Shown here piece by piece: positions 50,649-64,000 of a DNA stretch of 64,000 nt (the first letter of the stretch is position 1; each line of letters opens with the position of its first letter). The notes below the pieces were generated by a model, which searched no databases, was not told where the DNA came from, and was given only the letters and a program-made list of their open reading frames with translations. The translations under genes were made by a program, and so were the position numbers. The stretch is taken from the NCBI RefSeq assembly GCF_004965515.1, contig NZ_SSHH01000001.1:62001-126000 (forward strand), written 5' to 3'. The stretch is from Alteraurantiacibacter aquimixticola. Its GTDB lineage: Bacteria; Pseudomonadota; Alphaproteobacteria; Sphingomonadales; Sphingomonadaceae.

Positions 50649-50794
50649 CGGAGACGCGCTTTCCTACACGGCTTGTGGTGGGCTTGGCGGAAAGCAGGAT
50701 TGTGAATTGAGGAACCGAGACGCGTTCGGACCGCCGGATCGCCGAAGGTTACACGCACAGGACATGGAATTAGATGCAAATTGCTGGAATTGAG

Positions 50795-52927
50795 ATGAAA
50801 TCTGCCACGGGCCGCCTCCACAAAAAGCGGCTTTTGTGTTCCATCGCATCGACTTTCGCGCTGGCGCTTGCCAGTTGCACCACCGCTGGTGGCGAGAGCG
50901 CCCCGGTCGGGGCCATTGCCGCCAGTGCGGACCCGCTCGCCAATCCGGCGGCGGGCGAATGGACCAGTGACGGGCGCGACTATACCGCGCAACGCTTCAG
51001 CCCGCTGACGCAGGTGAATGCGCAGAACGTCAGCCAGCTGGGCCTCGCCTGGTATGCCGATCTCGACACCTATCGCGGGGTGGAGGCGACGCCGCTCTAT
51101 GCCGATGGCGTGCTTTACAACACGCTGAGCTGGAACATCACCACCGCCTATGACGCGAAGACGGGCGCGGTGCTGTGGACCTACGATCCCAAGACCCCGC
51201 GCGAGTTCGGCCGCTATGCCTGTTGCGAGCCGGTCAGCCGCGGCCTCGCCATGTCGGGCGACAAGGTGATCATCGCCACGCTCGATGGCCGCCTGATCGC
51301 GCTGAACAAGGATACGGGCGCGGAGCTGTGGAACACCCGCACCTTCGAACTCGACAGCGGCTATGCCTACTCCATCACCGGCGCGCCGCGCGTGTTTGGG
51401 GACAAGGTGGTGGTCGGCCAGTCTGGTGGCGACCTGGGCGTGCGCGGCTTTGCCTCCGCTTATGACGTGGAGACGGGCGAGGAGGTGTGGAAGTTCTACC
51501 TCACTCCCAATCCGGACGACATGCCCGATGGCGAGGCTTCGGACAGCGCGAACGCCATGATGCGCGCGACATGGTCGGATGAAGGCATGTGGCGGCAGCT
51601 GGGCGGCGGGGCCAATCCGTGGGACGCCATCGCCTACGATCCGGAGCTGAACCTCGTCTATGTCGGCACGGGCAATTCCGTCCCGCATGCGCGCTATTAC
51701 CGCTCCAACAATGAGGGCGACAACCTGTTCGTCTGCTCAATCGTCGCGCTCGACGCCGACAGCGGCGAGTATCGCTGGCACTACCAGATGAACCCGGGCG
51801 AGGAGTGGGACTGGACCTGCACCGCCAGCATGATCAGCGCCGATCTGGAGATCGAGGGTGAGACGCGGCAGGTGCTGATGCAGGCACCGAAGAACGGCTT
51901 CTTCTACGTGCTCGACCGCGCAACGGGCGAGTTCATCAGCGCCGGTGCGCATGTGTTCCAGAACTGGAACGAGGGTTTCGATGCCAATGGCCGCCCGATC
52001 ACCAGTGACGCGGTGCGTTATGACGAGACGCCCAAGCTGGTCGCACCGGGGCCGGGCGGGGCGCATAACTGGTTCCCCATGGCCTTCAGCCCGCGCACGG
52101 GGCTCGCCTACTTCCCGGCCTACCAGTCGGCCTTCGTCTATGCGTTGCAGCCGGGATGGGAGCCGCAGCCCATGCGGTCGAACAGCGGCTGGGGCGGCTA
52201 TACGGGAGAGGCCGGGCGCATCCGCGGCGAGCTGATGGCGGAGGCCAATGCGGTTGAGGCTGCATGGCTCGCGGCATGGGACCCGGTGAAGCAGGAGCTC
52301 GCCTGGAAGGTCGAGCTGCCGCGCCACGGCAATGGCGGGGTCATGGTCACGGCCTCGGACCTCGTCTTCGAAGGCACCACGAAGCAGACCTTCGCTGCCT
52401 TCAACGCGCATGACGGTTCGCTGCTGTGGGAGTATCCGACGCAGAGCGCGCCGGTCGCGGGCGCGATAACCTATGAAATCGACGGCGAGCAATATATCGC
52501 GATCAATGCCGGCTGGGGCGGCGGCGCGGCGCAGATCGAGCGCGGCGCGGGCATCGAGATGCCGCGTGCGCCTGCCCGCCTGCTGGTGTTCAAGCTGGGC
52601 GGCAACCTGACGCTGCCGCCGCTGCCCGAGAACGCTGCGGCCCCGCCCGAACCGCCGCGTCTTGCCGCTTCGGAAGAGAGGGTGGCGCACGGGCAGCTGC
52701 TGTTCCAGCAGACCTGCGCGGTGTGTCACGGCCAGAACGCCATCGGCGGCGTAAAGGACCTGCGCCACATGGACCGCGACACGCATGGCAAGTTCGACCA
52801 GATCGTGCTGGAGGGCCTCTATCTCGACAAGGGCATGGCGAACTTCTCCGACATCCTCAGCCAGGAGGATGCCGATGCGATCCATGCTTATGTGATCGCC
52901 CGCGCGAACGAGGACTGGGGACGGTAG
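50795..52927 (+). CDS. PQQ-dependent quinohaemoprotein dehydrogenase with C-terminal cytochrome c, lipoprotein
   Basis: This protein of about 710 residues has an eight-bladed PQQ propeller with W-motif repeats (AYDAKTGAVLWTYD). It has the vicinal disulphide CC in RYACCEPVSRG and catalytic-site segments VGTGNSVPH and GEEWDWTCTASM. A C-terminal haem domain carries CAVCH, and KGMANFSD is the probable Met ligand. The lipobox is LASC. It would oxidise an alcohol or sugar in the periplasm and pass electrons to its own haem. A start 21 bp upstream is equally plausible. The gene follows the SnoaL triplet by 146 bp without an operator. The substrate is unknown. Confidence 0.88.
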   Translation: MKSATGRLHKKRLLCSIASTFALALASCTTAGGESAPVGAIAASADPLANPAAGEWTSDGRDYTAQRFSPLTQVNAQNVSQLGLAWYADLDTYRGVEATPLYADGVLYNTLSWNITTAYDAKTGAVLWTYDPKTPREFGRYACCEPVSRGLAMSGDKVIIATLDGRLIALNKDTGAELWNTRTFELDSGYAYSITGAPRVFGDKVVVGQSGGDLGVRGFASAYDVETGEEVWKFYLTPNPDDMPDGEASDSANAMMRATWSDEGMWRQLGGGANPWDAIAYDPELNLVYVGTGNSVPHARYYRSNNEGDNLFVCSIVALDADSGEYRWHYQMNPGEEWDWTCTASMISADLEIEGETRQVLMQAPKNGFFYVLDRATGEFISAGAHVFQNWNEGFDANGRPITSDAVRYDETPKLVAPGPGGAHNWFPMAFSPRTGLAYFPAYQSAFVYALQPGWEPQPMRSNSGWGGYTGEAGRIRGELMAEANAVEAAWLAAWDPVKQELAWKVELPRHGNGGVMVTASDLVFEGTTKQTFAAFNAHDGSLLWEYPTQSAPVAGAITYEIDGEQYIAINAGWGGGAAQIERGAGIEMPRAPARLLVFKLGGNLTLPPLPENAAAPPEPPRLAASEERVAHGQLLFQQTCAVCHGQNAIGGVKDLRHMDRDTHGKFDQIVLEGLYLDKGMANFSDILSQEDADAIHAYVIARANEDWGR

Positions 52928-52939
52928 GGCGCTTCGAGG

Positions 52940-53863
52940 TCAGAGGCCCAGCGCCTCTGCCGCCGCGCGTAATTGCCCTTCCGCCTGCGGGTTGGCTTCC
53001 AGCGCGTGCGCGTAGGCATCGCGTGCCTGTCCGGTGCGGCCCAAGGTCTGGTAGCTGCGCATCAGCATGATCCACCCGTCGACATTGGCGGGGTCCCCTT
53101 CCAGCCGCGCGGCGAGGCGGCTGACCATGTCCTCGGCCATGTCCTGCTGCTGTCCCGGCGACATGCCGGCTGCTGCCGCCATCTGGTCCTGCGTGGGGCC
53201 GGGAATGCCGCCGGTGGCAGAGGCCGGGAGGATGTCGCGCGTCGCCATCGCCTGTTCGATACGCGGCTGCAAATCGATCTCCTCGCGCTGGCCCACCTGG
53301 CTGATCGTGCGGATGAGGTCGGTCTCCCACGGCGCGCCGGGCGGCGTATCGGCGAGCAGCGCCAACCAGTCCGCGATCGCGCCGTCATTGTCGCCCGAAA
53401 GGTCTCTCTGCACGGCGAGGAAATAGCGAGCGCGCGGATTGCCGGGATCGAGCGCGACCGAGCGGCGGAACGCTTCCAGCGCGGCGGGCGGCATGGGATC
53501 GCTCTCATCGGCATAGATGCGTGCTTCGCCAAGGGCGGACCACAGATCGGCGCTGTCGGGCGCGCGCTCCACCGCCTCTTCATAGGCTTCGGCCGCTTCG
53601 GGATACATGTTGGCGCTGAAATGGGCGAAGCCGAGCCGCTGCCACGGCACCGGATCGCCGCCCGCCTGCTCGGCCAGTTCGCGCATCTCCTCGAAGCTTT
53701 GCGGTGCGGCTTCTTCGACAGTGGAGACAGGCGCCGCATCGGCGCCCTCACTCGCCGTACCGACCAGCCGCCATGTCAGCGCTGCAGCCAGAATAGCCAC
53801 CGCAATCAATGCGATGATCGCCCCTTTCGGAAAACCACTTGTCGTGCTGTTGTCCAAGATCAC
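52940..53863 (-). CDS. TPR protein resembling CcmI/NrfG cytochrome c biogenesis factors
   Basis: This protein of about 307 residues has one N-terminal membrane helix (GAIIALIAVAILAAALTW) and periplasmic TPR units (WQRLGFAHFSANMYPEAAEAYEEAVERAPDS in part; YQTLGRTGQARDAYAHALEANP). This is the layout of the periplasmic part of CcmI/CcmH, which presents apocytochrome c for haem attachment. It lacks the usual second membrane segment. The start is uncertain among GTG 53869, GTG 53863 and TTG 53857. It diverges from a multihaem cytochrome operon, so a dedicated maturation role is plausible. Confidence 0.7.
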   Translation of the reverse strand: MILDNSTTSGFPKGAIIALIAVAILAAALTWRLVGTASEGADAAPVSTVEEAAPQSFEEMRELAEQAGGDPVPWQRLGFAHFSANMYPEAAEAYEEAVERAPDSADLWSALGEARIYADESDPMPPAALEAFRRSVALDPGNPRARYFLAVQRDLSGDNDGAIADWLALLADTPPGAPWETDLIRTISQVGQREEIDLQPRIEQAMATRDILPASATGGIPGPTQDQMAAAAGMSPGQQQDMAEDMVSRLAARLEGDPANVDGWIMLMRSYQTLGRTGQARDAYAHALEANPQAEGQLRAAAEALGL

Positions 53864-53954
53864 CCCCACCCTCGATACTTGCTAAAAAAGCACCGTCCTC
53901 AACGGTTTTCAATGCGCCTTCTTTGCGGCATAAGAATTTGCAGGGGGGACGGGA

Positions 53955-56405
53955 ATGACATCAGGTCAAGACCGTGTGCAAGTTGCGATCGTCGGTTCTG
54001 GGCCTGCGGGTCTCAGTGCCGCGGCGCATGCCGCGCATCTGGGGATGAGCCATGTGCTCATCGAAAAGACCGACCACCTCTCCGACACGATCTTCAAATA
54101 CCAGAAGGGCAAGCATGTGATGGCGACACCATCCAACCTTGTCCTGCGATCGGACCTCGATTTCGATGCCGGCAGCCGCGAGGAAATCCTCGGCATCTGG
54201 GACCGGCAGATCGCCGAGGGTAAGGTCAATGTCCGCTACAATGCGGAAGTAACCGCGATCACCGGCGACAAGGGAGCCTATGTGATCGAGGTGAAGGGTG
54301 GCGCGCCGATCCACGCCGAGAACGTCGTGCTGGCCATCGGCACGCAGGGCAATCCCAACCTCTTGCGCATTCCCGGTGCGGAGATGCCGCATATCCAGTA
54401 CCAGCTGGACGATCCGGGCGAATATTTCGACGAGCATATCACCGTGATCGGTTCGGGCGATGCGGGGATCGAGAATGCGCTCGGCCTCGCCGCCGATCCG
54501 GCACAGCGCAATACCGTCACCATCCTCAATCGCCGCAACAGCTTTGCCCGCGCCAAGGGCGCCAACGTCAAGCTGCTGGAGGAAGCGGAAGCCGATGGCC
54601 GCATCTCGGTGCGCCGCGAAACCTCCCCGCAGGAAGTGCGCCCGGGAGAGCTGGTGCTCGATACGCGCGATGGTGAGGAAGTGATCCGCTGTGACCGCAT
54701 CATCGCGCGCACCGGCTCCAAGCCGCCGCGCGATTTCGTCGAGGCGATCGGCGTGCAGTTCGCCAGCGAGGAGCGCGACGCCTTCCCGCAGCTGACCCCG
54801 ACTTTCGAGACGACCAAGAACGGCGTGCATGTAATCGGCGCGCTGGCGGGATATCCGCTCATCAAGCACTGCATGAACCAGGGCTATGACGTGATCGAGT
54901 TCCTCAATGGGAACACCGATCTCAAGCCCGCCGACCAGCCGATTCTTGAAGAGAAGTTCGCCAAGCTTCCGGACCGGTATCCGGTCGAACACTGGCTGGA
55001 CGTGATCGGCAGCAATGTCGCCATCTTCCGCGAGCTTTCGCCGCTGCAATTGCGCGAGCTGCTGCTCGATTCCACCGTGGAGGCTTTCGCGCCGGGTGAG
55101 GCGGTGTTCATCCGCAATGAGCCGGGTTCCTCCATGTTCGCCATCGCGCAGGGCTCGGTCGCGGTGGAGGTCAATCCGAACGATCCTTCGGTCACAGTGC
55201 CTATCGAGGAAGGCTCGATCTTCGGCGAGGTCGGCCTCATTTCCGGACGCCGCCGCGGCGCGACGATCCGCGCGGCCGAGCCGCTGGTGGTGGTCGAATT
55301 GTCGCGCAATGCCGCGCTGAAACTCATCGCCACCGTGCCCAGCGCCGGCAGGGTGGTGAACCAGATCAGCATCGAGCGGCAATTGCTGCAGATGTTCGGA
55401 TCGGGCCTGACGCGCGAGGATGTCGCCGCGCTGGTCCAGCAGGCCGAAGTGGTGGACGTGCGCGCGGGCCAGAAGGTGATCGAGGAAGGGGCGGAGGACA
55501 GGGACATCTACGTCATCCGCCGCGGGTCGATGATCGTGGAGAAGGATATTGGCGGCAAGCCGGTCTTCCTCTCCTACCTCCCCGCCGGATCCTATTTCGG
55601 CGAAATGGCGGTGATCGACGGATCGAAGCGCACCGCCACGGTGAAGGCCGCGATCAAGAGCGAGGTCGTGCGCTTCCCGGGCGAGGCGTTCAACGCACTG
55701 CTCGATGCCAAGCCCCGCCTGCGCGAAAAGGCGCTGGAGGAAATGGCCGGCCGCCGCGAAGTCACCGCTTTCGTCGAAGCGCGCAAGGACAGCTTCGGCT
55801 CGGCGGCGGACATGTATTCGGAAACCGCGCAATTCCTCGTCGATAACGGCATTGGCGAGGCGACCGACGTGTTGCTTATTGACGAGACGCTCTGCGTCGG
55901 CTGCGACAATTGCGAGAAGGCCTGTGCCGATAGTCACGAGGGTCTAAGCCGCCTCGACCGCGAGGCTGGACGGACCTACGCCCACCTCCACGTGCCGACG
56001 TCATGCCGCCATTGCGAGCATCCGCATTGCATGGCCGATTGCCCGCCCAATGCGATCAAGCGCGGCCCCGATGGCGAGGTCTTCATCGACGACACTTGCA
56101 TCGGCTGCGGCAATTGCCAGCGCAACTGCCCCTATGGCGTGATCCGCATGGATGCGGTGCCGCCCGAAAAGCCCGGCCTGCTCAGCTGGCTGCTGTTCGG
56201 CAAGGGGCCGGGACCGGGCGAGGCGAGCTATAGCTGGCGCAAGGAGCATTCGGGCGAGGGTCAGGCCAAGCTCGCGATCAAATGCGACATGTGCCTCGGC
56301 ATTGATGGCGGTCCTGCCTGCGTGCGCGCCTGTCCCACAGGTGCCGCGATCCGCGTCGCGCCGGAGAAGTTCCTCTCGGTGACAAGGGAAGGGGGGCTCG
56401 ACTGA
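53955..56405 (+). CDS. FAD oxidoreductase - double cyclic-nucleotide-binding - 4x[4Fe-4S] ferredoxin fusion
   Basis: This 816-residue cytoplasmic protein has three parts. Residues 1-340 are an FAD/NAD(P) domain with GSGPAG near residue 14 and GSGDAG near 166; it is YpdA-like, without a CxxC. Residues about 355-595 are two cNMP-binding domains. Their phosphate cassettes are FGEVGLI..RRGATI (about 422) and the fully canonical FGEMAVI..KRTATV (about 548). Residues about 640-800 hold 16 cysteines in four 4Fe-4S motifs (CVGCDNC, CRHCEHPHC, CIGCGNC, CDMC...CVRAC), as in DmsB/HycB-type subunits. It probably moves electrons from NAD(P)H to the membrane cytochrome b, gated by cyclic nucleotide. The stop overlaps the next start. 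Confidence 0.88.
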   Translation: MTSGQDRVQVAIVGSGPAGLSAAAHAAHLGMSHVLIEKTDHLSDTIFKYQKGKHVMATPSNLVLRSDLDFDAGSREEILGIWDRQIAEGKVNVRYNAEVTAITGDKGAYVIEVKGGAPIHAENVVLAIGTQGNPNLLRIPGAEMPHIQYQLDDPGEYFDEHITVIGSGDAGIENALGLAADPAQRNTVTILNRRNSFARAKGANVKLLEEAEADGRISVRRETSPQEVRPGELVLDTRDGEEVIRCDRIIARTGSKPPRDFVEAIGVQFASEERDAFPQLTPTFETTKNGVHVIGALAGYPLIKHCMNQGYDVIEFLNGNTDLKPADQPILEEKFAKLPDRYPVEHWLDVIGSNVAIFRELSPLQLRELLLDSTVEAFAPGEAVFIRNEPGSSMFAIAQGSVAVEVNPNDPSVTVPIEEGSIFGEVGLISGRRRGATIRAAEPLVVVELSRNAALKLIATVPSAGRVVNQISIERQLLQMFGSGLTREDVAALVQQAEVVDVRAGQKVIEEGAEDRDIYVIRRGSMIVEKDIGGKPVFLSYLPAGSYFGEMAVIDGSKRTATVKAAIKSEVVRFPGEAFNALLDAKPRLREKALEEMAGRREVTAFVEARKDSFGSAADMYSETAQFLVDNGIGEATDVLLIDETLCVGCDNCEKACADSHEGLSRLDREAGRTYAHLHVPTSCRHCEHPHCMADCPPNAIKRGPDGEVFIDDTCIGCGNCQRNCPYGVIRMDAVPPEKPGLLSWLLFGKGPGPGEASYSWRKEHSGEGQAKLAIKCDMCLGIDGGPACVRACPTGAAIRVAPEKFLSVTREGGLD

Positions 56406-57265
56406 TGGCGACTGTCGCCGAAGACGAAAGCCCGCGCCGCGAGCGGCAGAGCGATCACGAGGGTTTCCTCGCGCATAAGCGCATGCGCTGGCTCAAGATC
56501 GCACTGCTCGCCAGCCTGGTGGCGATCCTCTCCTATGCGCTGGTCGACGTCACTCCGCGCCATAATGGCGGCAGCTGGTACGGCTATACGCTCGGCACGA
56601 TCGGCGCGCTGCTGATCGTCTGGCTGGCATTGCTCGGCATCCGCAAGCGCAAGATGACCGAGGGCAAGTGGTCGCTGAAGGCCTGGACCTCGGCCCACGT
56701 CTATCTCGGCCTTTCGCTCATCGTCATCGCCACGCTGCACACCGGCTTCCAGTTCGGCTGGAACGTCCATACGCTCGCCTATGCGCTGATGATGCTGGTG
56801 ATCCTGTCGGGGATATACGGCATCGCGGTCTATGCGACGCTGCCCGCGCAGCTGTCCAACAACCGGCGCGAGATGACCAAGGGGCAGATGCTCGACGCGC
56901 TCGATGCGATCGACCGCCAGCTGGAAAATGCCGCGCAGCCTTTGGGCCGGGCCGAGAGCGACCTGGTGATCGGCGCGCTGGAGCAGGATCCCTTTGCGGG
57001 CGGCATCGGCGCGCGCCTGACCGGCCGCTATCCCGATTGCCGCACGGTCGAGGCGCTTGACGCGATGGCGCATCTCGATGGCGATGCGGCCTCGGGCAAG
57101 GTCCTCTCCCTGCTTCGCAAGCGCAAGGCGCAGCTCGACCAGATCCGCCGCCACATGCGCATTCGCGCCATGCTGGAAGTGTGGCTCTATATCCATGTGC
57201 CGGTCACCATCGCGCTCATCGCCGCGCTGACCGCGCATATCGTCAGCGTCTTCTATTATTGGTGA
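56405..57265 (+). CDS. Membrane cytochrome b-like subunit
   Basis: This 286-residue protein has about five membrane helices: near residues 30-49, 58-79, 91-113, 118-140 and 259-286. Histidines sit in helix 3 (SAHVYLGLSLIVIATLHTGF) and the last helix (IHVPVTIALIAALTAHIV), the pattern of bis-His haem b ligation. A cytoplasmic segment with charged helices lies between helices 4 and 5. It overlaps the fusion gene by one base and precedes the decahaem gene by 8 bp. It is best read as the link between the cytoplasmic iron-sulphur protein and periplasmic haems. I do not recognise a named family. Confidence 0.75.
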   Translation: MATVAEDESPRRERQSDHEGFLAHKRMRWLKIALLASLVAILSYALVDVTPRHNGGSWYGYTLGTIGALLIVWLALLGIRKRKMTEGKWSLKAWTSAHVYLGLSLIVIATLHTGFQFGWNVHTLAYALMMLVILSGIYGIAVYATLPAQLSNNRREMTKGQMLDALDAIDRQLENAAQPLGRAESDLVIGALEQDPFAGGIGARLTGRYPDCRTVEALDAMAHLDGDAASGKVLSLLRKRKAQLDQIRRHMRIRAMLEVWLYIHVPVTIALIAALTAHIVSVFYYW

Positions 57266-57273
57266 GGGGACGC

Positions 57274-59025
57274 ATGCAGTTTCGCCTACGCAGTATCGAT
57301 GTCACCGCCGCCGGTCGAGAGATCGTGCGCGAGCGCGAGCTTGCCGCCGAGAGCATCGTCATCGGCCGCGACGCCGCCAATGCCATCCACCTGCCGGACC
57401 TGGCGGTGGAGCAGCAACATATCCGCCTTACTCCCGCGCCGGGAGGGACCCTGCGCGCCGAAGCCTTGGGATCGCTCGGTTTCACGCTCGACGGGCGCAA
57501 CGTCCAGTCGGGTGCGATCGATCCGGCCAAGGGGGCGGAGATCGGTGTCGGCTCCTACCGCCTCGACTTCTCGACCGGTGAGGATGGTGCGACCGTCATC
57601 ACCACCCGCCAGCGGGCGGAGGATGAGGGCGGCGGCAAGGAGCGCCTGCGCGGCTTCACCCTTGCCAGCGCGCTGCCGGGCAAAAGGACCATGGCCTGGG
57701 CCGGCTCCATCGTCATCCTCCTCGCCTTCCTCGCCATCCCGATCTTTTCCCACCTCACGCGTGAGCAGGTGGAACCGCAGCTGACCGGCGAAGGCGTGGT
57801 GCTGATGGATGCGAGCTGGAGCACCGGCGCGCTCTCCTCGGTCCACCATGGCCTCGAGAACAATTGCGAGGCCTGCCATGTCGAGCCTTTCGTGGCGGTG
57901 CGCGACCAGACATGCCTGACCTGTCACGAGGGCATTGCCGACCACGCGCTGGCGGATCGCATGTCCACCGGCCGGCCGCAGGCCGAGGGCGGCGAGGCGC
58001 TGCTGTGGAGCGTCGCCCATGCCTTCAACAAGCCCGGCCCCGGCGCTTGCACCGACTGCCATACCGAGCATGAAGGCGCGGGGCGGATGGAGCCGACTAG
58101 GCAGCAATTCTGCGCCGATTGTCACGACACGCTGGATTCGCGGCTGTCCTACACGACGCTGGGCAATGCAGCCGATTTCGGCGAGGCGCATCCGGAGTTC
58201 AAGGTGGCGGTGCTGGCCGAACAGGGCGCGAGCGAACGACGCCGCCTCTCGCTTGCCTCGCATCCGAAGGACTGGAACGGGCTGCGCTTCCCGCACGATA
58301 TCCACCTCGATCCCACCAGCGGCGTGACGCAGATGGCGCGGCGGCTGGGCGCGGATGCCGGCTATGGCGACGGGCTCGAATGCGCCAGCTGCCATACGCC
58401 CACCGCCGATGGCGTGCGCTTCCTGCCGGTGGACATGGAGACCAATTGCGAGACCTGCCACAGCCTCGTCTATGACCGCGTCGGATCGACCTTCCGCACG
58501 CTGCGCCATGGCGACGTGGCGCAGGTGGAGGCGGACCTGCTCGCCGCCGATCGCAGCCCGCGCCGCCCGGTAATGACCGGCAGGCGACGACCGGGCGACT
58601 ATGCCGAAGGCGGCATCTATTACGGCAATTTCAGCCGCGTCGCCCCTTCGGTCCTGCGCGCCAGCGCGATGGATAGCGATGGGCTGTGCGGCGAGTGCCA
58701 CCTTCCCGGCGATGCCGCCACGGGCGTGCTCTCGGTCGCGCCGGTCAGGCAGCACGCGCGCTTCATGATGAATGGCTGGTTCGACCATGATGCGCACACG
58801 CAGGAGGACTGCGCGACCTGCCACGCGGCGGATACGTCCAACGCGGCGAGCGACCTGTTGCTGCCCGATCTCGCCTCCTGCCGCGATTGCCATGAGGGCG
58901 AGGCTGCGCTCAGCGCCGAAGTCCCTTCAAGCTGCGCCATGTGCCATTCCTATCACCCGCGCGAAGGGGCCGCCGCTGCTCCGCCACGCATTGCGGGCCT
59001 GTCCGGCGCAAGGATCAAGCCATGA
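57274..59025 (+). CDS. FHA domain - transmembrane helix - decahaem cytochrome c
   Basis: This 583-residue protein starts with a forkhead-associated domain (about 8-100) with the canonical IGRDAANAIHLPDLAVEQQHIRL pattern in parts. One helix follows (about 142-162, MAWAGSIVILLAFLAIPIF). Then come ten CxxCH haem sites from about residue 198 to 554: CEACH, CLTCH, CTDCH, CADCH, CASCH, CETCH, CGECH, CATCH, CRDCH, CAMCH. The topology puts the phosphothreonine-binding FHA in the cytoplasm and the haems in the periplasm. The ATG at 57274 follows GAGGGGACGC. I know of no characterised protein with this architecture. Its stop overlaps the phosphodiesterase start (ATGA). Confidence 0.88.
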   Translation: MQFRLRSIDVTAAGREIVRERELAAESIVIGRDAANAIHLPDLAVEQQHIRLTPAPGGTLRAEALGSLGFTLDGRNVQSGAIDPAKGAEIGVGSYRLDFSTGEDGATVITTRQRAEDEGGGKERLRGFTLASALPGKRTMAWAGSIVILLAFLAIPIFSHLTREQVEPQLTGEGVVLMDASWSTGALSSVHHGLENNCEACHVEPFVAVRDQTCLTCHEGIADHALADRMSTGRPQAEGGEALLWSVAHAFNKPGPGACTDCHTEHEGAGRMEPTRQQFCADCHDTLDSRLSYTTLGNAADFGEAHPEFKVAVLAEQGASERRRLSLASHPKDWNGLRFPHDIHLDPTSGVTQMARRLGADAGYGDGLECASCHTPTADGVRFLPVDMETNCETCHSLVYDRVGSTFRTLRHGDVAQVEADLLAADRSPRRPVMTGRRRPGDYAEGGIYYGNFSRVAPSVLRASAMDSDGLCGECHLPGDAATGVLSVAPVRQHARFMMNGWFDHDAHTQEDCATCHAADTSNAASDLLLPDLASCRDCHEGEAALSAEVPSSCAMCHSYHPREGAAAAPPRIAGLSGARIKP

Positions 59026-59873
59026 TCATCGCGCAGCTGACCGATATCCATATCGGCTTCGAGCCGGAGGCGCGGCCAGAGGAACTGAACGGCCAGCGCT
59101 TCCGCGCCACGCTCGATCGGCTGCTGAAACAGCCCAACACGCCCGACATGCTGATCTGTTCGGGCGACATCACCGATCGCGGCGATGAGGAGAGCTTCCG
59201 CAAGACGGCCGAGCTGCTGGCCGAATGCCCCTTCCCGGTGCACATGATGGTGGGCAATCATGACTGCCGTGAAGGGCTGCTGGCGGCCTTTCCCGATACG
59301 CTGCGCGGCGAGGATGGCTTCATCCATTCCGCCGTCGAGCATCAGGGACTGCTGGTTGTGCAGCTCGATACGCTGGAACCGGGCCGCCATGGCGGGGCCT
59401 TCTGCACCGGGCGCCGCGACTGGCTGCGCGCGCAGCTGGAAGCGCATCGGGATACGCCCACGGTGATCTTCATGCACCACCCGCCGGTCGTCTCCGGCAT
59501 CAAATGGATGGACCCGCGCGCGGACGAGCAATGGATACTCAACCTGGCCGCCGCGCTCGAGGGGATGAGCCAGGTGCAGGCGATCCATTGCGGGCATCTC
59601 CACCGCCAGATCGTCACCGACTTCTGCGGTATTCCCTTGAGCGTCACGCCCTCGGTCGCGCCGCTGGTGGCGATGGACATGCGCCCGATCTCACCGGACA
59701 AGCCCGACGGCCGCCCGCTCATCACCACCGAACCGCCGCGCTATGCGCTGCACCATTGGGACGGCGAACGGCTCGTCTCGCACTACGAGACCGTCAGCGA
59801 CTGGGAGGTGCTCGCCTTCTACGGCCCGCACCTCCAGCCGATGATCCGCGATATGGAGCGGGAGAAGGGGTAG
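59022..59873 (+). CDS. Class III cyclic-nucleotide phosphodiesterase-like metallophosphoesterase
   Basis: This 283-residue calcineurin-like enzyme has all the metal motifs: DIH (LTDIHIG), SGDITDRG, VGNHDCR, FMHHPPV and CGHLHRQ. The layout matches CpdA/GpdQ, which hydrolyse cAMP or related phosphodiesters. It has no signal peptide. It is the last gene of the FAD-cNMP / cytochrome b / FHA-decahaem operon and overlaps the preceding stop. A role in clearing the nucleotide sensed by the fusion protein is attractive but inferred; glycerophosphodiesterase activity is the main alternative. Confidence 0.85.
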   Translation: MIIAQLTDIHIGFEPEARPEELNGQRFRATLDRLLKQPNTPDMLICSGDITDRGDEESFRKTAELLAECPFPVHMMVGNHDCREGLLAAFPDTLRGEDGFIHSAVEHQGLLVVQLDTLEPGRHGGAFCTGRRDWLRAQLEAHRDTPTVIFMHHPPVVSGIKWMDPRADEQWILNLAAALEGMSQVQAIHCGHLHRQIVTDFCGIPLSVTPSVAPLVAMDMRPISPDKPDGRPLITTEPPRYALHHWDGERLVSHYETVSDWEVLAFYGPHLQPMIRDMEREKG

Positions 59874-59927: not shown

Positions 59928-60950
59928 CTATTCGTCTACCTTTGTGGTATCCGTCTTCGCATATTCCTGGAGGGCTTCGATGCTCTCGGGAAGTTTCACG
60001 CCGCGAATGACAAAGTTCTTCGTCTTCCCGCGTTCATGCTCCCCCGCGATCGGACGGGGAGCGCCCGCGCCGATCAACTGCACCGTATCCAGACCATAGG
60101 TGCGCAGAGACATTTCAACCTGCAGCGGATAAAACGCCCGTTCCATGGCAACGCCGTAATTGGGGTGGATCGGAGGGATGCCGGGACGATGCGGGCGTTC
60201 GATGAAAACACCTTCATCCAGCGCACGCCGGACGGTTTCGATCAAACGGTCCCCATGGAGGCCAGCCGTATTGTGGGCGTAATACTCCAGCTTCTCCTGG
60301 TCCAGTTTACGTTCCTTGAAGGCCCGACGAAGGGTGACGAAGCGCTTTTTCTCGTAGTTCGATTCCCCGAACTCTTTGGAATGGCCACCATCCCACAAAG
60401 AGTACCAGTCAATAAGGTCCATCCGCGTCTTCAGGTGGGAGTAGTTATTCCCGTCTGAAATGACTATTTCCCCTCCTTCTTTCAATACGCGAGAGCACTC
60501 GGAATAAAAATTCTCTACAAGGCTGGGGTTGATATGGCTGATAACCTCATTAACAAGAATAAAATCAACGGAATTCGATTCGATGTCCAGATAGCAATCA
60601 TCAGATTTAAAGTAGGTGCTATTGTACTTCTCGCCAATGAACTTGGCTCCATCGCTCAAATATTCATCGTCCACATCAACGCTGATGACGTTCTTCGCGC
60701 CGCGCTCCATCAAGATCGGGGTCAAGTGACCGAACTTGCATCCGTAATCGAGGAATGTGCCGCCAGTAACTGGCCGGGAAAAAAGGCGAAGCCTGAGAAG
60801 AATTCTCTCCCACATACCATCCTTGTATCGTTCGGACATGCGCTCGAATTTGCGTCCAGCTTCACGATCAATAGCGTCCTGATAAATTTCATTATATGCT
60901 TTTGCCAGAGATTCACGGCTTTCATCGGAAATATCACTATGGAGCGTCAT
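59928..60950 (-). CDS. SAM-dependent methyltransferase, probably acquired
   Basis: This 340-residue class I methyltransferase has motif I FLDYGCKFGH near residue 67, an acidic motif II (VISVDVDDEYL) and VDFILVNEVISHINP. It has a long C-terminal region of unknown role. The ATG at 60950 follows AAGGAA. The gene is visibly richer in A/T and uses codons such as AAA, AAT and ATA that neighbours avoid, a sign of recent transfer. It sits between two convergent cytochrome-related units. The substrate is unknown; its C-terminal part is reminiscent of glycan or surface-polymer methyltransferases only in a vague way. Confidence 0.75.
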   Translation of the reverse strand: MTLHSDISDESRESLAKAYNEIYQDAIDREAGRKFERMSERYKDGMWERILLRLRLFSRPVTGGTFLDYGCKFGHLTPILMERGAKNVISVDVDDEYLSDGAKFIGEKYNSTYFKSDDCYLDIESNSVDFILVNEVISHINPSLVENFYSECSRVLKEGGEIVISDGNNYSHLKTRMDLIDWYSLWDGGHSKEFGESNYEKKRFVTLRRAFKERKLDQEKLEYYAHNTAGLHGDRLIETVRRALDEGVFIERPHRPGIPPIHPNYGVAMERAFYPLQVEMSLRTYGLDTVQLIGAGAPRPIAGEHERGKTKNFVIRGVKLPESIEALQEYAKTDTTKVDE

Positions 60951-61260
60951 GTAATTCCTTCTCCTTCTGGTCCGCATTTCTAAAGCTGGGGGCGGTAACG
61001 TTTAATGCTGGATGGAGGTTACTCTCGGATCCAGGATAACAGGTGCCGAATTTCTATGAAGAATCCAATCCGGATTTCTAATCCATTGAAGACGCCTGAA
61101 AATTTTTGGACGCCATAAAGCGCTCGACGGGGACGGTCTAGTTGGGAGCGGCGACGAATGTCAAACATCGAACTGCGACCGTGCGTCTGGCTGTGGAAAG
61201 CGCGTTCGCCGTATCGGGAATGCCACCAATCGGGCCGCTAGTGCCCGTCAAGCTACTTGC
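60951..61260 (+). other. Intergenic region of low GC without recognisable gene
   Basis: This 310-bp stretch contains the promoter side of the methyltransferase gene and AT-rich sequence to about 61120. High-GC sequence then returns up to the stop of the multihaem gene. I see no RNA gene, terminator or conserved coding sequence; the composition change near 61120 may mark an insertion edge. Confidence 0.5.
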
Positions 61261-64000
61261 TCACCGCCCTGCCAGGACTGGCCCCCGACCCGGTACCCAC
61301 GCCGCCATGTCCACCGCGTCGCTCACCCGCCATGGCACTCCGGCATCGGTGAGAAACAGCTCGTCCATCTCGGCGCGGGTGAAGGGCCGGGAGCCGAGGC
61401 GGCCGAAAATGGCGATCTGGCCGCCCGTTTCGTCCACGGCGCGATCGCGGTCGAGGCCCTTGGACATGGATAAGGCGGGCGAGGGCGTTTTCGCCCAGGC
61501 GATCAGCTCGGGCATCGGCGCAGGGCTGAAGCCGTAGAAATTGCGCTGGCTGTCCGGGCTGGTCAGCTGGAGCACTTTCACCCCGTTCACCCCGTCCGCG
61601 ACATAGGCGAAGAGCGAGGCATTGGTGGAGCCGACCACCACGTCCTCCACATCGGTCATGGTGCCGCCCAAGGTCTCGCGGGCGTAGACTTGCGGCGCGA
61701 GCGGGCGGGTCACGTCCACGATCACCAGCCCCTCCTGCTTGCCCGCGACATAGGCATAGGTGCGGGCGACATAGATGCGGCGGGCGTCCTGCATCGGCAC
61801 CGTCCCCTCTGGGCGCAGAACGGGGTTGCGCAGTTTGGTGACGTCGAACAGCTTCAGCCCCTCGGCATCGCTGACCCAAAGGTAGCGGAACTGGATCGCT
61901 GAGGCGCGGGCATCAGCCATCTCGCGCACGGCGGAGACTTGCGGGCTTTCGGGATTGGAGAGGTCCACCACCACCAGGCCCACATCGGCGGTGATATAGG
62001 CCACCTCGCCCGCCAGCGTGATGTGGCGCGCACCGGCGAGTACATTGTCCGGGTTCCACGCATCGCTGCCATCGGTGAAGGTCAGCCGGTCGATATCGTT
62101 ATTGCGCAGCTCGCCATCGGCGAAGGTGTCGACATTGACGAGGAGCAGGCCCTCCTCCGCGTCGGTGACCACCGCATAGTGGTAGATCGGCAGGAAGGCC
62201 TGCTCCTGGTTCATTTCGCGCATTTCGGCGGTGTTGCGCGTGGGCGCGATCGCCTGGTTGGTGGGCAGCGCCATGCAGGTGGCATTCTCGCTGCCGACAT
62301 GGGCGTCATGGCCGAGGGGCGAGAAGGGCGCGGTGATGATCCGCTCCGAGAAGCCTTTGTTGGCGATGCTGGCAATGTCATAGACGCGGAAGCCGCCCTT
62401 GCCTTCCGCCACGAACATGTATTCGCCGCGCATCTGCAGGCAGCGCACGGCATCGGGCGTGCCTTCCACGACATTGGCGAATTGCTCCAGCGCCTTGGTC
62501 TCGCCCGACACGTCGCCATCGAAGACCTCGCCGCGGGTCCAGTCCTTCAGCTCGCGATCATTGTCCTCCACATGCATGCGCCAATAATCGGGATAGGCAT
62601 AGCGATGGAGGTAGGAGCCGAGCACCGCCTGCGGCTCGTCCCATTCGGTGACGCGGGTGGCCTGGAAACCAGCCTCCAGACCCGTCCATGCGTTCATCCC
62701 CACGAAGTTCACGTAATTGGTGCCGAGCAGCAGCAGCTGCGCCATGATCGCGTTGTTGTCCTCTGCTTCGGAGAGGTGGCAGTCCGAGCAGGTTTTGGTC
62801 TCGGTCAGCCGAACCGTATGCGGGAAATGCGGCGCGAAGGCCTGGCTGGAAAAGCCCGCCGAGCTGATCGGCGGCTGCTGGATATAGATCCGCTCCCGAT
62901 TGATATTCGTGGAGGAGAGCACCAGCGCGCTGGAGGAGCGGACGGGCGCGACCTCGTTGCCCTTGGTGGTCTGGTGTACGCCCAGCTGGAACATCTGGTC
63001 GCGCGCCACCTGCGGATTGTAGGTGGCGAAGTTGCGCGTGGTCTCCCCGTCATAACGATGCACCTCGCTCTGCCAGTTCGCCTCGATCGGCAGGTGGCAG
63101 CCGCCGCAGCTGGTGGTCCAGCTGAGGTGGCAGGTGAAGCAGGCCATGTCGTCATCGCCATGCGCGCGGTTTTCCGGAGCGATTCCGGGGCCAAACTCAA
63201 AGTTGCCCGTTTCCGCGCCATCGCGGCTCATCAGCTTGGCGCGGGCCGACTTGCCGTTGAAGTTGGGGCTGGCGGGATCGACGCTATCCCTGACGAGACT
63301 GACTTCCCATTCAAGCTCGGGATCGACGATGCTGCGCTGGATCAGCTTGCGGCGTCCACCTTCTTCATCCACCCATTCGAAGCGGCGGCGGCCGTCCGGG
63401 TTGCGGATAACGGCAAGGTTGTGCCCGTCGGGCGGGGCGGCGGGGCCGGAGGTGCGCAAGGTCGGATATTCGTCCGCCGTGCCGTGGCAATCCTTGCAGC
63501 CGATCTCGATCGCATTGGCGACTTCGCCATAGATCAGGCCGTTGCCATGCGCGTCCTGCGAGAAGTGGCAATCGGCGCATTGCATGCCGACCTCGGCATG
63601 GATGCTCATCATGTGCACAGCCTTGCCGGGATTGGTGCCGGGCTCGACGAATTCGCCTTCGCCCTCGCGTCGCCAGATTTCCGGATCGTCGGGGTCGAGG
63701 ATATTTCCGTCGGCGTCGAGGAGATTTCCCTCGCGGTCGCGCTTGAAGATCGCGCGGAAGTTCCAGCCATGGCCGTGATAGTCGCCGAACTGCGTGTCTT
63801 TCAGCTCCGGGTTGAGCGAATAGACTTCGCGCAGGAAATCGACATCGGCCCACAGCCCGCGCGGGGCGGCGCCTTCGGGATTGCGGTCCAGCACCGCGCG
63901 CACTTCCTCCGCCGTGGGATATTGCTGCGTGAGGTAGGTGGCCGCGTAATCCTCGTCGCTCATGCCTTCGGGGCGCGGGGTGCGGTTTTCCGGGCCGGGC
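61261..64000 (-). CDS. Multihaem cytochrome c with C-terminal LVIVD-repeat propeller, 5' truncated
   Basis: At least 900 residues are visible. Five CxxCH sites lie in the first half (CADCH, CKDCH, CFTCH, CGGCH, CSDCH). The second half repeats LVIVD-type blades (GLVVVDLSNPESP, GLKLFDVTKLRNP, GLVIVDVTRPLAP, GVKVLQL). The reading frame stays open upstream of the ATG at 63963 to the window edge (PGPENRTPRPEG before it). The visible N-terminus lacks a signal peptide, so the true start lies beyond the window. It is probably a periplasmic or surface electron-transfer partner of the decahaem system. An ALSMSKGLDRDR segment near 61470 resembles repeat-derived coding. Confidence 0.82.
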   Translation of the reverse strand, partial: PGPENRTPRPEGMSDEDYAATYLTQQYPTAEEVRAVLDRNPEGAAPRGLWADVDFLREVYSLNPELKDTQFGDYHGHGWNFRAIFKRDREGNLLDADGNILDPDDPEIWRREGEGEFVEPGTNPGKAVHMMSIHAEVGMQCADCHFSQDAHGNGLIYGEVANAIEIGCKDCHGTADEYPTLRTSGPAAPPDGHNLAVIRNPDGRRRFEWVDEEGGRRKLIQRSIVDPELEWEVSLVRDSVDPASPNFNGKSARAKLMSRDGAETGNFEFGPGIAPENRAHGDDDMACFTCHLSWTTSCGGCHLPIEANWQSEVHRYDGETTRNFATYNPQVARDQMFQLGVHQTTKGNEVAPVRSSSALVLSSTNINRERIYIQQPPISSAGFSSQAFAPHFPHTVRLTETKTCSDCHLSEAEDNNAIMAQLLLLGTNYVNFVGMNAWTGLEAGFQATRVTEWDEPQAVLGSYLHRYAYPDYWRMHVEDNDRELKDWTRGEVFDGDVSGETKALEQFANVVEGTPDAVRCLQMRGEYMFVAEGKGGFRVYDIASIANKGFSERIITAPFSPLGHDAHVGSENATCMALPTNQAIAPTRNTAEMREMNQEQAFLPIYHYAVVTDAEEGLLLVNVDTFADGELRNNDIDRLTFTDGSDAWNPDNVLAGARHITLAGEVAYITADVGLVVVDLSNPESPQVSAVREMADARASAIQFRYLWVSDAEGLKLFDVTKLRNPVLRPEGTVPMQDARRIYVARTYAYVAGKQEGLVIVDVTRPLAPQVYARETLGGTMTDVEDVVVGSTNASLFAYVADGVNGVKVLQLTSPDSQRNFYGFSPAPMPELIAWAKTPSPALSMSKGLDRDRAVDETGGQIAIFGRLGSRPFTRAEMDELFLTDAGVPWRVSDAVDMAAWVPGRGPVLAGR

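Follow-up and report, generated by a model that had tools for sequence, protein, structure and literature searches.

A PCC4-related gene set in Alteraurantiacibacter aquimixticola and other Proteobacteria: a candidate cyclic-nucleotide-gated, trans-envelope electron conduit

A stretch of 64,000 nucleotides of the Alteraurantiacibacter aquimixticola genome (NCBI RefSeq assembly GCF_004965515.1, contig NZ_SSHH01000001.1, positions 62,001 to 126,000 of the forward strand; hereafter the window, i.e., the whole stretch of DNA that was analysed) holds four consecutive genes that combine flavin, cyclic-nucleotide-binding, iron-sulfur and multihaem parts, here termed FUS, CYB, FHA10 and PDE. This locus raises the question of whether these genes belong to one coherent system and, if so, from where to where that system moves electrons and whether a cyclic nucleotide controls the flow. 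A preliminary description, made from the sequence alone, correctly placed the four genes, all of which lie on the + strand, at 53955-59873 and took them to be a signal-controlled electron-transfer module. Judged from sequence comparisons, the gene set is real, widespread and coherent, and the window type stands apart as a variant of the PCC4 porin-cytochrome clusters, with a flavin adenine dinucleotide (FAD) domain fused into its input subunit, two intact nucleotide pockets, an FHA domain and an outer module of its own. Our preferred reading, to which we lean without great confidence, is a PCC4-like trans-envelope conduit that would be driven by NAD(P)H, run outward and be gated by a cyclic nucleotide. 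The four genes are:

FUS: 53955..56405, + strand; 816 amino acids; fusion of a FAD/NAD(P)H oxidoreductase, two cyclic nucleotide monophosphate (cNMP) domains and a four-cluster ferredoxin.
CYB: 56405..57265, + strand; 286 amino acids; cytochrome b.
FHA10: 57274..59025, + strand; 583 amino acids; FHA fold, transmembrane helix and decahaem cytochrome.
PDE: 59022..59873, + strand; 283 amino acids; CpdA/SpdA-like metallophosphoesterase.

Their spacing is operon-like: CYB begins on the last base of the FUS stop codon (a 1-base overlap), FHA10 begins 8 bases past CYB (its start being assigned to ATG 57274, not GTG 57181), and PDE, with an ATG start, overlaps FHA10 by 4 bases. In the proposed mechanism, cytosolic FUS would pass electrons from NAD(P)H, with NADPH preferred, through FAD to four [4Fe-4S] clusters, CYB would carry them across the inner membrane via two b haems, and the membrane-anchored decahaem protein FHA10 would move them on into the periplasm, from where the products of four further genes (f16, the putative barrel f5, f3 and f9) would lead them as far as the outer membrane or through it. 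The step from flavin to clusters would most likely be opened or closed when cAMP or cGMP binds to the cNMP domains of FUS.

With regard to distribution, CYB was found in 19 of the 37 genomes of the window's genus, its own included, and the other 24 genomes of the order gave two weak matches. At the class level, CYB was found at an expectation value (E) of <1e-50 in 25 of 289 genomes (own included) and in 44 at E 0.001; a CYB profile found matches at E <1e-60 in 15 of 397 phylum genomes, five of them from other classes, and in 29 at E 0.001. A scan of GTDB for CYB gave at least 581 matching stretches, not de-duplicated (one gene may match both patterns), the best 80 of which were taken as GTDB loci; five of these 80 are labelled Alphaproteobacteria only, the remainder carry Sphingomonadales names, and some are identical to genus-locus records. 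Alongside these 80, 17 genus, 24 class and 8 phylum-level loci were fetched, the last chosen from 13 strong matches other than the window genome and genome G198. When loci with room on both sides within the fetched stretch were counted and gaps of up to 1 kb were accepted, FUS, CYB and FHA10 stood in this order in 15/15 genus, 72/72 GTDB, 19/21 class and 7/8 phylum-level loci, and FUS lay upstream of CYB in 19 of the 22 class loci with upstream room. The gene order, on whose conservation outside close relatives the preliminary description had staked its reading, is thus kept to the phylum level, and we reject a chance assembly of genes confined to close relatives, as the order is kept far beyond the genus. 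FUS was also seen over 99% of its length in twelve Sphingobium plasmid records (those of L202 and L203 being replicons near 1 Mb), and L202 further carries CYB, FHA10, the phosphoesterase, a tetratricopeptide repeat (TPR) gene and f3, f5 and f9.

FUS is the subunit on which both the proposed electron input and the proposed gate depend. Its Pfam matches (Pyr_redox_3/2, two cNMP_binding stretches and Fer4 families) agree with the fusion of FAD, double cNMP-binding and 16-cysteine ferredoxin parts recognized earlier. Residues ~9-310 form a FAD/NAD(P)H oxidoreductase domain of a YpdA/thioredoxin-reductase-like kind, the cNMP pockets lie at 423-438 and 548-563, and the ferredoxin domain spans ~640-805; profile matches in the PDB are to regulatory parts of cGMP- and cAMP-dependent protein kinases (PKG and PKA), to YpdA and to 4Fe-4S subunits. 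FUS, which directly precedes CYB, further matches PF13247 at 6.3e-11, over the cut-off. Conservation was read from alignments of 20 FUS (alignment A2), 27 CYB and 23 decahaem proteins, partial and distant PCC4-type proteins being excluded. All 16 ferredoxin cysteines are invariant in 20/20 FUS, and so are, in both cNMP domains, the pocket Glu and Arg, a motif which we take to be the phosphate-binding cassette, consistent with the PKG/PKA profile matches. By pattern, both pockets are canonical in 14/14 genus, 69/72 GTDB, 17/19 class and 7/7 phylum-level FUS, this survey having dropped 3 genus, 8 GTDB, 5 class and 1 phylum-level loci without a full FUS frame. Behind the second Rossmann motif stands N-R-x-x-x-F-x-R-x-K, in which Asn, Phe and Lys are invariant and each Arg is present in 19/20; with thioredoxin reductase taken as a guide, NADPH is the favoured donor. 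Since the flavin part lacks conserved redox cysteines (in the 20 aligned FUS sequences, no Cys ahead of residue 647 is invariant or close to it), we rejected a thioredoxin reductase or bacillithiol disulfide reductase function for FUS.

The hydropathy of CYB is consistent with five transmembrane helices, and the protein has sites for two b haems: two WX3HX13H motifs (W94/H98/H112 and W260/H264/H278) stand on either side of an SGXXG motif (S135-G139), all three motifs are present in 26/27 aligned sequences, and H98, H112, H122, H264 and H278 are invariant in 27/27, which bears out its designation as a bis-histidine membrane cytochrome b. The predicted model is helical (predicted local distance difference test score, pLDDT, 78.5). 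CYB has no Pfam (E 0.001) or NCBIfam match, and comparison with PDB profiles gave no meaningful match, the best being ATP synthase subunit b at E 0.049; with no fold match either, assignment to a known cytochrome b family was set aside. Its kinship is settled by the motifs, which match the signature given for the inner-membrane protein in the main text of He et al. (PMC5566968).

FHA10 comprises an N-terminal FHA-fold domain, one transmembrane helix at ~137-161 and a C-terminal decahaem cytochrome c with Pfam cytochrome c7/c3 matches. The ten CXXCH motifs are invariant in all 23 aligned decahaem proteins, which share nine further invariant His and one nearly invariant His and therefore have the right number of ligands for ten bis-histidine haems. 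Although the FHA match of the window protein is weak by Pfam (E 0.0026, below the curated cut-off; matches at E 0.01 in 18/23 aligned proteins), an AlphaFold2 model of residues 1-110 has a pLDDT of ~82-94 per block, and the best PDB matches of this model in a Foldseek search are FHA domains (E 8.7e-6), so that the predicted structure gives clear support to an FHA fold. The overall architecture proposed earlier thus holds, as does the inner-membrane electron-transfer module as a whole, with conserved sites for NAD(P)H/FAD, four [4Fe-4S] clusters, b haems and ten c haems.

The two signalling inputs that had been proposed for these proteins fared differently: both cNMP pockets are intact, whereas the phosphothreonine input of FHA10 appears weak. 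What we take to be the phosphothreonine site of FHA domains consists of an Arg, a Ser and an Asn; the Arg is present in 23/23 and only a Gly-Arg pair is invariant, the Ser is replaced by Glu46 in the window protein and present in 3/23, and the Asn is replaced by Asp73 and present in 13/23. As the usual Ser and Asn are not conserved, the view of this domain as a proven phosphothreonine reader was downgraded. The host genome has two protein kinase matches, both over the family cut-off.

A possible off-switch enzyme within the operon had also been suggested. PDE does belong to the Pfam Metallophos family, while its CpdA label falls short of the NCBIfam cut-off (74.2 bits vs 225); its best NCBIfam match is SpdA, a 2',3'-cNMP enzyme, likewise below the cut-off (140.4 vs 400). 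The gene stands beside the core in 74 of the 75 GTDB loci with room, in 1/22 class loci and in 1/7 phylum-level loci, the two loci in question (L069 and L217, respectively) coming from the window's family; in L215, from another family, a phosphoesterase match lies 6.6 kb downstream. Being nearly confined to the window's family, PDE was downgraded as a core off-switch; its distribution marks it as a lineage-specific companion of the broadly conserved core, to which it does not itself belong.

Nine loci (L093, L095-L101 and L214) form a second type, in which a cNMP-ferredoxin protein of 558-607 amino acids, ~27% identical to window-type FUS (L093), has no FAD domain, as domain scans of L093 and L099 show. 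CYB, a decahaem protein, f18 and the tetrahaem family f13 are present in 9/9 (three CXXCH were counted in the f13 of L214); here and below, f numbers denote neighbour families, i.e., blast clusters of genes around core loci, and f18 is a separate flavin/NAD/2Fe-2S reductase (domains scanned in L093). A pentahaem family, f14, is found in seven of these loci (clipped in L095) and a putative porin, f17, in six. In the decahaem proteins of this type, a repeated Cys-rich stretch of ~100 residues stands ahead of the transmembrane helix, in the position that FHA takes in the window type; their N-termini gave no Pfam match (FHA in 0/9), and the Cys-rich stretch is possibly a metal- or redox-sensing input. 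These nine loci fit, by their sequences, the main-text description of PCC4 by He et al. (2017, Front Microbiol 8:1584, PMC5566968) as putative extracellular-electron-transfer clusters. In that description, the clusters encode a putative porin, three periplasmic cytochromes (4-, 5- and 10-haem) and an inner-membrane protein that has five transmembrane helices, two WX3HX13H motifs and an SGXXG motif; those of Subgroup II also have, upstream of the gene for this protein, one for an Fe-S protein (pfam13247). Mixed loci also occur: L074, L084 and L085 join window-type CYB and FHA10 to f14 and f17, and in L074 and L084 the window-type inner module is complete, whereas L085 lacks FUS. In L085 and L079 a tetrahaem f13 gene occupies the FUS place, which suggests a further variant.

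The second type bears on input and gating alike. Because PCC4-type FUS without a FAD domain comes with the separate reductase f18 in 9/9 loci, NAD(P)H input is supported. A gate would be the simplest role for the cNMP domains because these sit between donor and clusters and the first has survived the deepest divergence in our set, its pocket being intact in 9/9 second-type proteins. The conduit could instead operate without gating, the cNMP domains serving as structural or assembly modules and regulation being transcriptional only. Loss of the second cNMP pocket among PCC4-type proteins does indicate that the fold can persist without binding; against this stand the pocket Glu and Arg, kept in both domains of the 20 window-type sequences and in the first PCC4-type domain despite the low identity between the types, the presence of PKG and PKA regulatory parts among the best solved relatives of the region, and two class III nucleotide cyclase matches in the host genome, both over the family cut-off. 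On this evidence we regard an ungated conduit as unlikely, though it deserves serious weight, and retain a cyclic-nucleotide gate in the preferred reading.

The set is larger than the four genes first recognized, because an outer module, missed by the preliminary description, starts at 61261 and runs past the window. In the window genome this module lies just downstream on the opposite strand, with f5, f9 and f16 past the window end; in several other families, f9, f5 and f3 follow FUS-CYB-FHA10 directly downstream. Its first gene is:

f3: 61261..64000, - strand, clipped by the window end (whole gene to 65412); 1383 amino acids; multihaem protein of the outer module.

f3, seen as a whole gene in L204, has ten CXXCH motifs, LVIVD repeats and, by eye, a signal-peptide-like start, and is present in 13/13 genus loci with ~7.5 kb of room downstream of CYB. 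The f9 protein has an HbpS-like match and, also by eye, a lipoprotein-like start, and f16 encodes a c554-like cytochrome with four haems. f5, which is proposed to house haems, has the look of an outer-membrane barrel: it has 19 alternating strands vs 10.9 +- 2.7 in shuffles, and ends in Tyr or Phe in 13/13 members. Near the core of many relatives there is also a ShlB/FhaC-type two-partner secretion transporter (L030:2807-4657) beside a large protein without a Pfam family (L030:3-3014); the two families (f8, in 24 loci, and f10, in 23 loci; domains scanned in L030 only) may represent a secreted surface partner.

The strongest sign that inner and outer halves work together is that f5 co-occurs with CYB even away from the core. 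Within the genus, f5 and CYB are present in precisely the same set of 19 genomes out of 37, counts that shared ancestry keeps from being independent events, and the 18 of 279 class genomes with f5 are all among the 25 strong-CYB genomes of the 289 drawn for CYB (the two class searches differ in the size of the draw). In 21 GTDB loci with room, no f3, f5 or f9 stands beside the core; of 17 genomes of such loci that were tested, 16 have f5 elsewhere, beyond the fetched stretch, the miss being a metagenome-assembled genome (L158), and this off-locus search recovered both positive controls. These counts also bear on the idea of a periplasmic reductase or NADPH-oxidase-like system, in which electrons would end in the periplasm or form superoxide and f5, f9 and f3 would have a separate uptake or adhesion function. 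Such an end point would suit L086 and L087, in whose fetched stretches only the tetrahaem f16 was found near the core and whose genomes (G301 and G109) gave no f5 in the class search, and it is helped by the fact that f5 is a barrel by inference only. It is at odds with f5 never occurring without CYB in the genomes searched, with its presence also when away from the core, and with L074, L084 and L085, which hold the PCC4 pentahaem protein and putative porin instead; we consider a periplasmic end improbable and keep to a conduit that would reach the outer membrane.

The direction of flow through the proposed conduit is favoured to be outward because of the fused NAD(P)H domain, its replacement by f18 in the second type, and energetics. 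Electrons that leave NADPH and move outward run downhill in chemical terms and also along the membrane potential, and for this reason a gate makes sense. An inward conduit would lead electrons from donors outside the cell, for instance Fe(II) or Mn(II), through the outer module, FHA10 and CYB to the quinone pool, with FUS as a side branch toward NAD(P)+. Reduction of NAD(P)+ by high-potential donors along this route would be uphill on both counts, the fused NAD(P)H-flavin domain of the input subunit (present in the 20 aligned FUS of the window type) fits an internal donor, and the named window-type carriers are Sphingomonadales, mostly not known as iron oxidisers. The inward reading does draw on the main text of He et al. 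(PMC5566968), where PCC3 and PCC4 are drawn with electrons moving inward, those of PCC4 to the quinone pool, where the inner-membrane protein is modelled as quinone-active, where PCC4 is taken from Zetaproteobacteria iron oxidisers and from a Hyphomicrobium of a pyrite-oxidising enrichment, and where a Mn(II)-oxidising Erythrobacter is listed among PCC3 carriers. Taking both sides into account, we hold inward flow to be a rather poor prospect for the window type, and outward flow is retained.

The published direction nevertheless weighs against the outward, gated conduit, as do several findings of our own. CYB occurs without an upstream FUS in class loci L079, L082 and L085 and in phylum-level locus L210, and in L213 a gap of ~860 bases separates CYB from the decahaem gene. 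A single canonical pocket by pattern was found in 3/72 GTDB and 2/19 class FUS (both of these class proteins still hold the Glu and Arg, with one extra residue), and PCC4-type proteins have a degenerate second cNMP domain. Foldseek, run with the CYB model, matched nothing at E 0.001 and was thus uninformative, and the FHA10 model is poor in its decahaem part. f5 has no solved relative, and a porin-family match (Alginate_exp) was found in 1/13 members only, the 13 giving nothing else in Pfam at E 1 and no MtrB/PioB-type match; the barrel pattern of f17 is weaker (8 strands vs 4.8 +- 2.0; C-terminal aromatic in 8/9). Finally, seven strong-CYB class genomes gave no f5 in the class search (G109, G117, G159, G174, G271, G301 and G084, the last perhaps not drawn there); three of them, G117, G159 and G174, which correspond to L074, L084 and L085, carry f14 and f17 in place of f5. 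As to the loci without FUS, the decahaem gene is present in L082, L085 and L210, and is clipped in L079, which lies on a short contig.

The remaining neighbours of the four genes in the window are:

PQQ (pyrroloquinoline quinone)-dependent methanol/ethanol-family dehydrogenase: 50774-52927, + strand; over the NCBIfam subfamily cut-off.
CcmI/CycH-like TPR protein: 52940..53869, - strand; Pfam TPR_CcmH_CycH; divergent neighbour of the cytochrome c maturation type.
Methyltransferase gene: 59928-60977, - strand; between PDE and f3.

The CcmI-like gene is a recurrent upstream neighbour (family f6, in 62/148 loci) and would have a supporting role at most. The dehydrogenase upstream of it has a C-terminal cytochrome c domain, and a match to it was found in only 1/52 related loci (L022). 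The methyltransferase gene looks like a local insertion because elsewhere in the genus, L025 and L030 being examples, f3 directly follows the phosphoesterase, and because blast gave no match to the methyltransferase in related loci; its region is low in G+C (0.572 at 60001-62000).

The carriers among the 80 GTDB loci, Sphingomonadales or unplaced Alphaproteobacteria, are mostly treated as plain aerobic heterotrophs. If electrons do flow outward, the system would allow a controllable dumping of NADPH electrons on surfaces, minerals or oxygen, and would bear on extracellular superoxide and on manganese and iron cycling. We offer only tentatively, and with doubt, the fuller proposal of a cAMP/cGMP-switched bacterial NADPH oxidase with a trans-envelope wire to the surface of aerobic Sphingomonadales and other Proteobacteria, which would reduce extracellular metals, humics or oxygen, the last to extracellular superoxide. 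Were the gated conduit true, a post-translational on/off switch would lie inside an extracellular electron-transfer machine of bacteria not regarded as electroactive, and the cNMP domains would be, to our knowledge, the first known protein-level handle for switching such a wire. The gene set is widespread and little studied (in one RefSeq-annotated plasmid, parts of the system are named hypothetical or after a single domain), and PCC4, predicted since 2017, gains candidate inputs and testable parts.

Among known systems, PCC4 is the closest to the window type, so that the preliminary statement that no such system had been described has to be withdrawn. Set against the main text of He et al. 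(PMC5566968), window CYB has the two WX3HX13H motifs and the SGXXG motif of the inner-membrane protein and a hydropathy that agrees with its five transmembrane helices, FUS is a pfam13247 Fe-S gene upstream of CYB as in Subgroup II, and the window system includes 10-haem and 4-haem cytochromes and a putative outer-membrane barrel. The two differ in haem set, which in the window genome is 10 (FHA10), 4 (f16) and 10 with LVIVD repeats (f3), no member of the pentahaem f14 being found in the 36 kb downstream (L204, L205). They differ also in the barrel, f5 being unrelated to f17, here taken as the PCC4 porin (separate blast clusters and no profile similarity, with an hhalign probability of 0.2%), and in the FAD/NAD(P)H domain, which is fused into window FUS, whereas the redox gene of PCC4 as described there is separate and upstream of the tetrahaem gene. 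Two intact cNMP pockets, an FHA domain in place of the Cys-rich cytosolic part of the decahaem protein, and an outer module of f5, f3 with LVIVD repeats and f9 further set the window type apart. The terms 'cyclic nucleotide', 'cNMP' and 'FHA' do not occur in the main text of PMC5566968 (supplement excepted), and in open-licence PubMed Central, with long result lists partly covered, no paper was found that joins cNMP domains with multihaem electron transfer.

PCC3 has an inner-membrane protein with the same motif signature (PMC5566968, main text) and differs in the very large haem counts of PCC3-like loci, in which no cNMP-FAD fusion was found. In one such locus (L038:2705-13218), a distant CYB relative stands by 33- and 21-haem proteins, a ferredoxin-FAD fusion and an ankyrin/Sel1 protein; in another (L094:1-9350), a CYB relative stands by a 21-haem and a clipped 13-haem protein, with a CcmF gene. 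If flow is outward, the window type would resemble NADPH oxidases and ferric reductases (FRD, PF01794) in its use of NADPH, FAD and two transmembrane bis-histidine b haems, and a comparison of HX13H spacing with FRD was drawn by He et al. (PMC5566968); it differs in that CYB has no Pfam match, four Fe-S clusters stand between flavin and haem, and ten c haems lie beyond. With MtrCAB, PioAB and MtoAB the system would share the general plan of multihaem cytochromes plus an outer-membrane barrel, here the putative barrel f5, whereas f5 has no Pfam match of their MtrB/PioB type and entry would be through a flavin/Fe-S/cytochrome b unit instead of a CymA/NapC-type quinol dehydrogenase. Finally, FUS resembles PKA and PKG in its tandem of cNMP domains, whose pocket residues are canonical, but carries this pair between flavin and iron-sulfur domains and not on a kinase.

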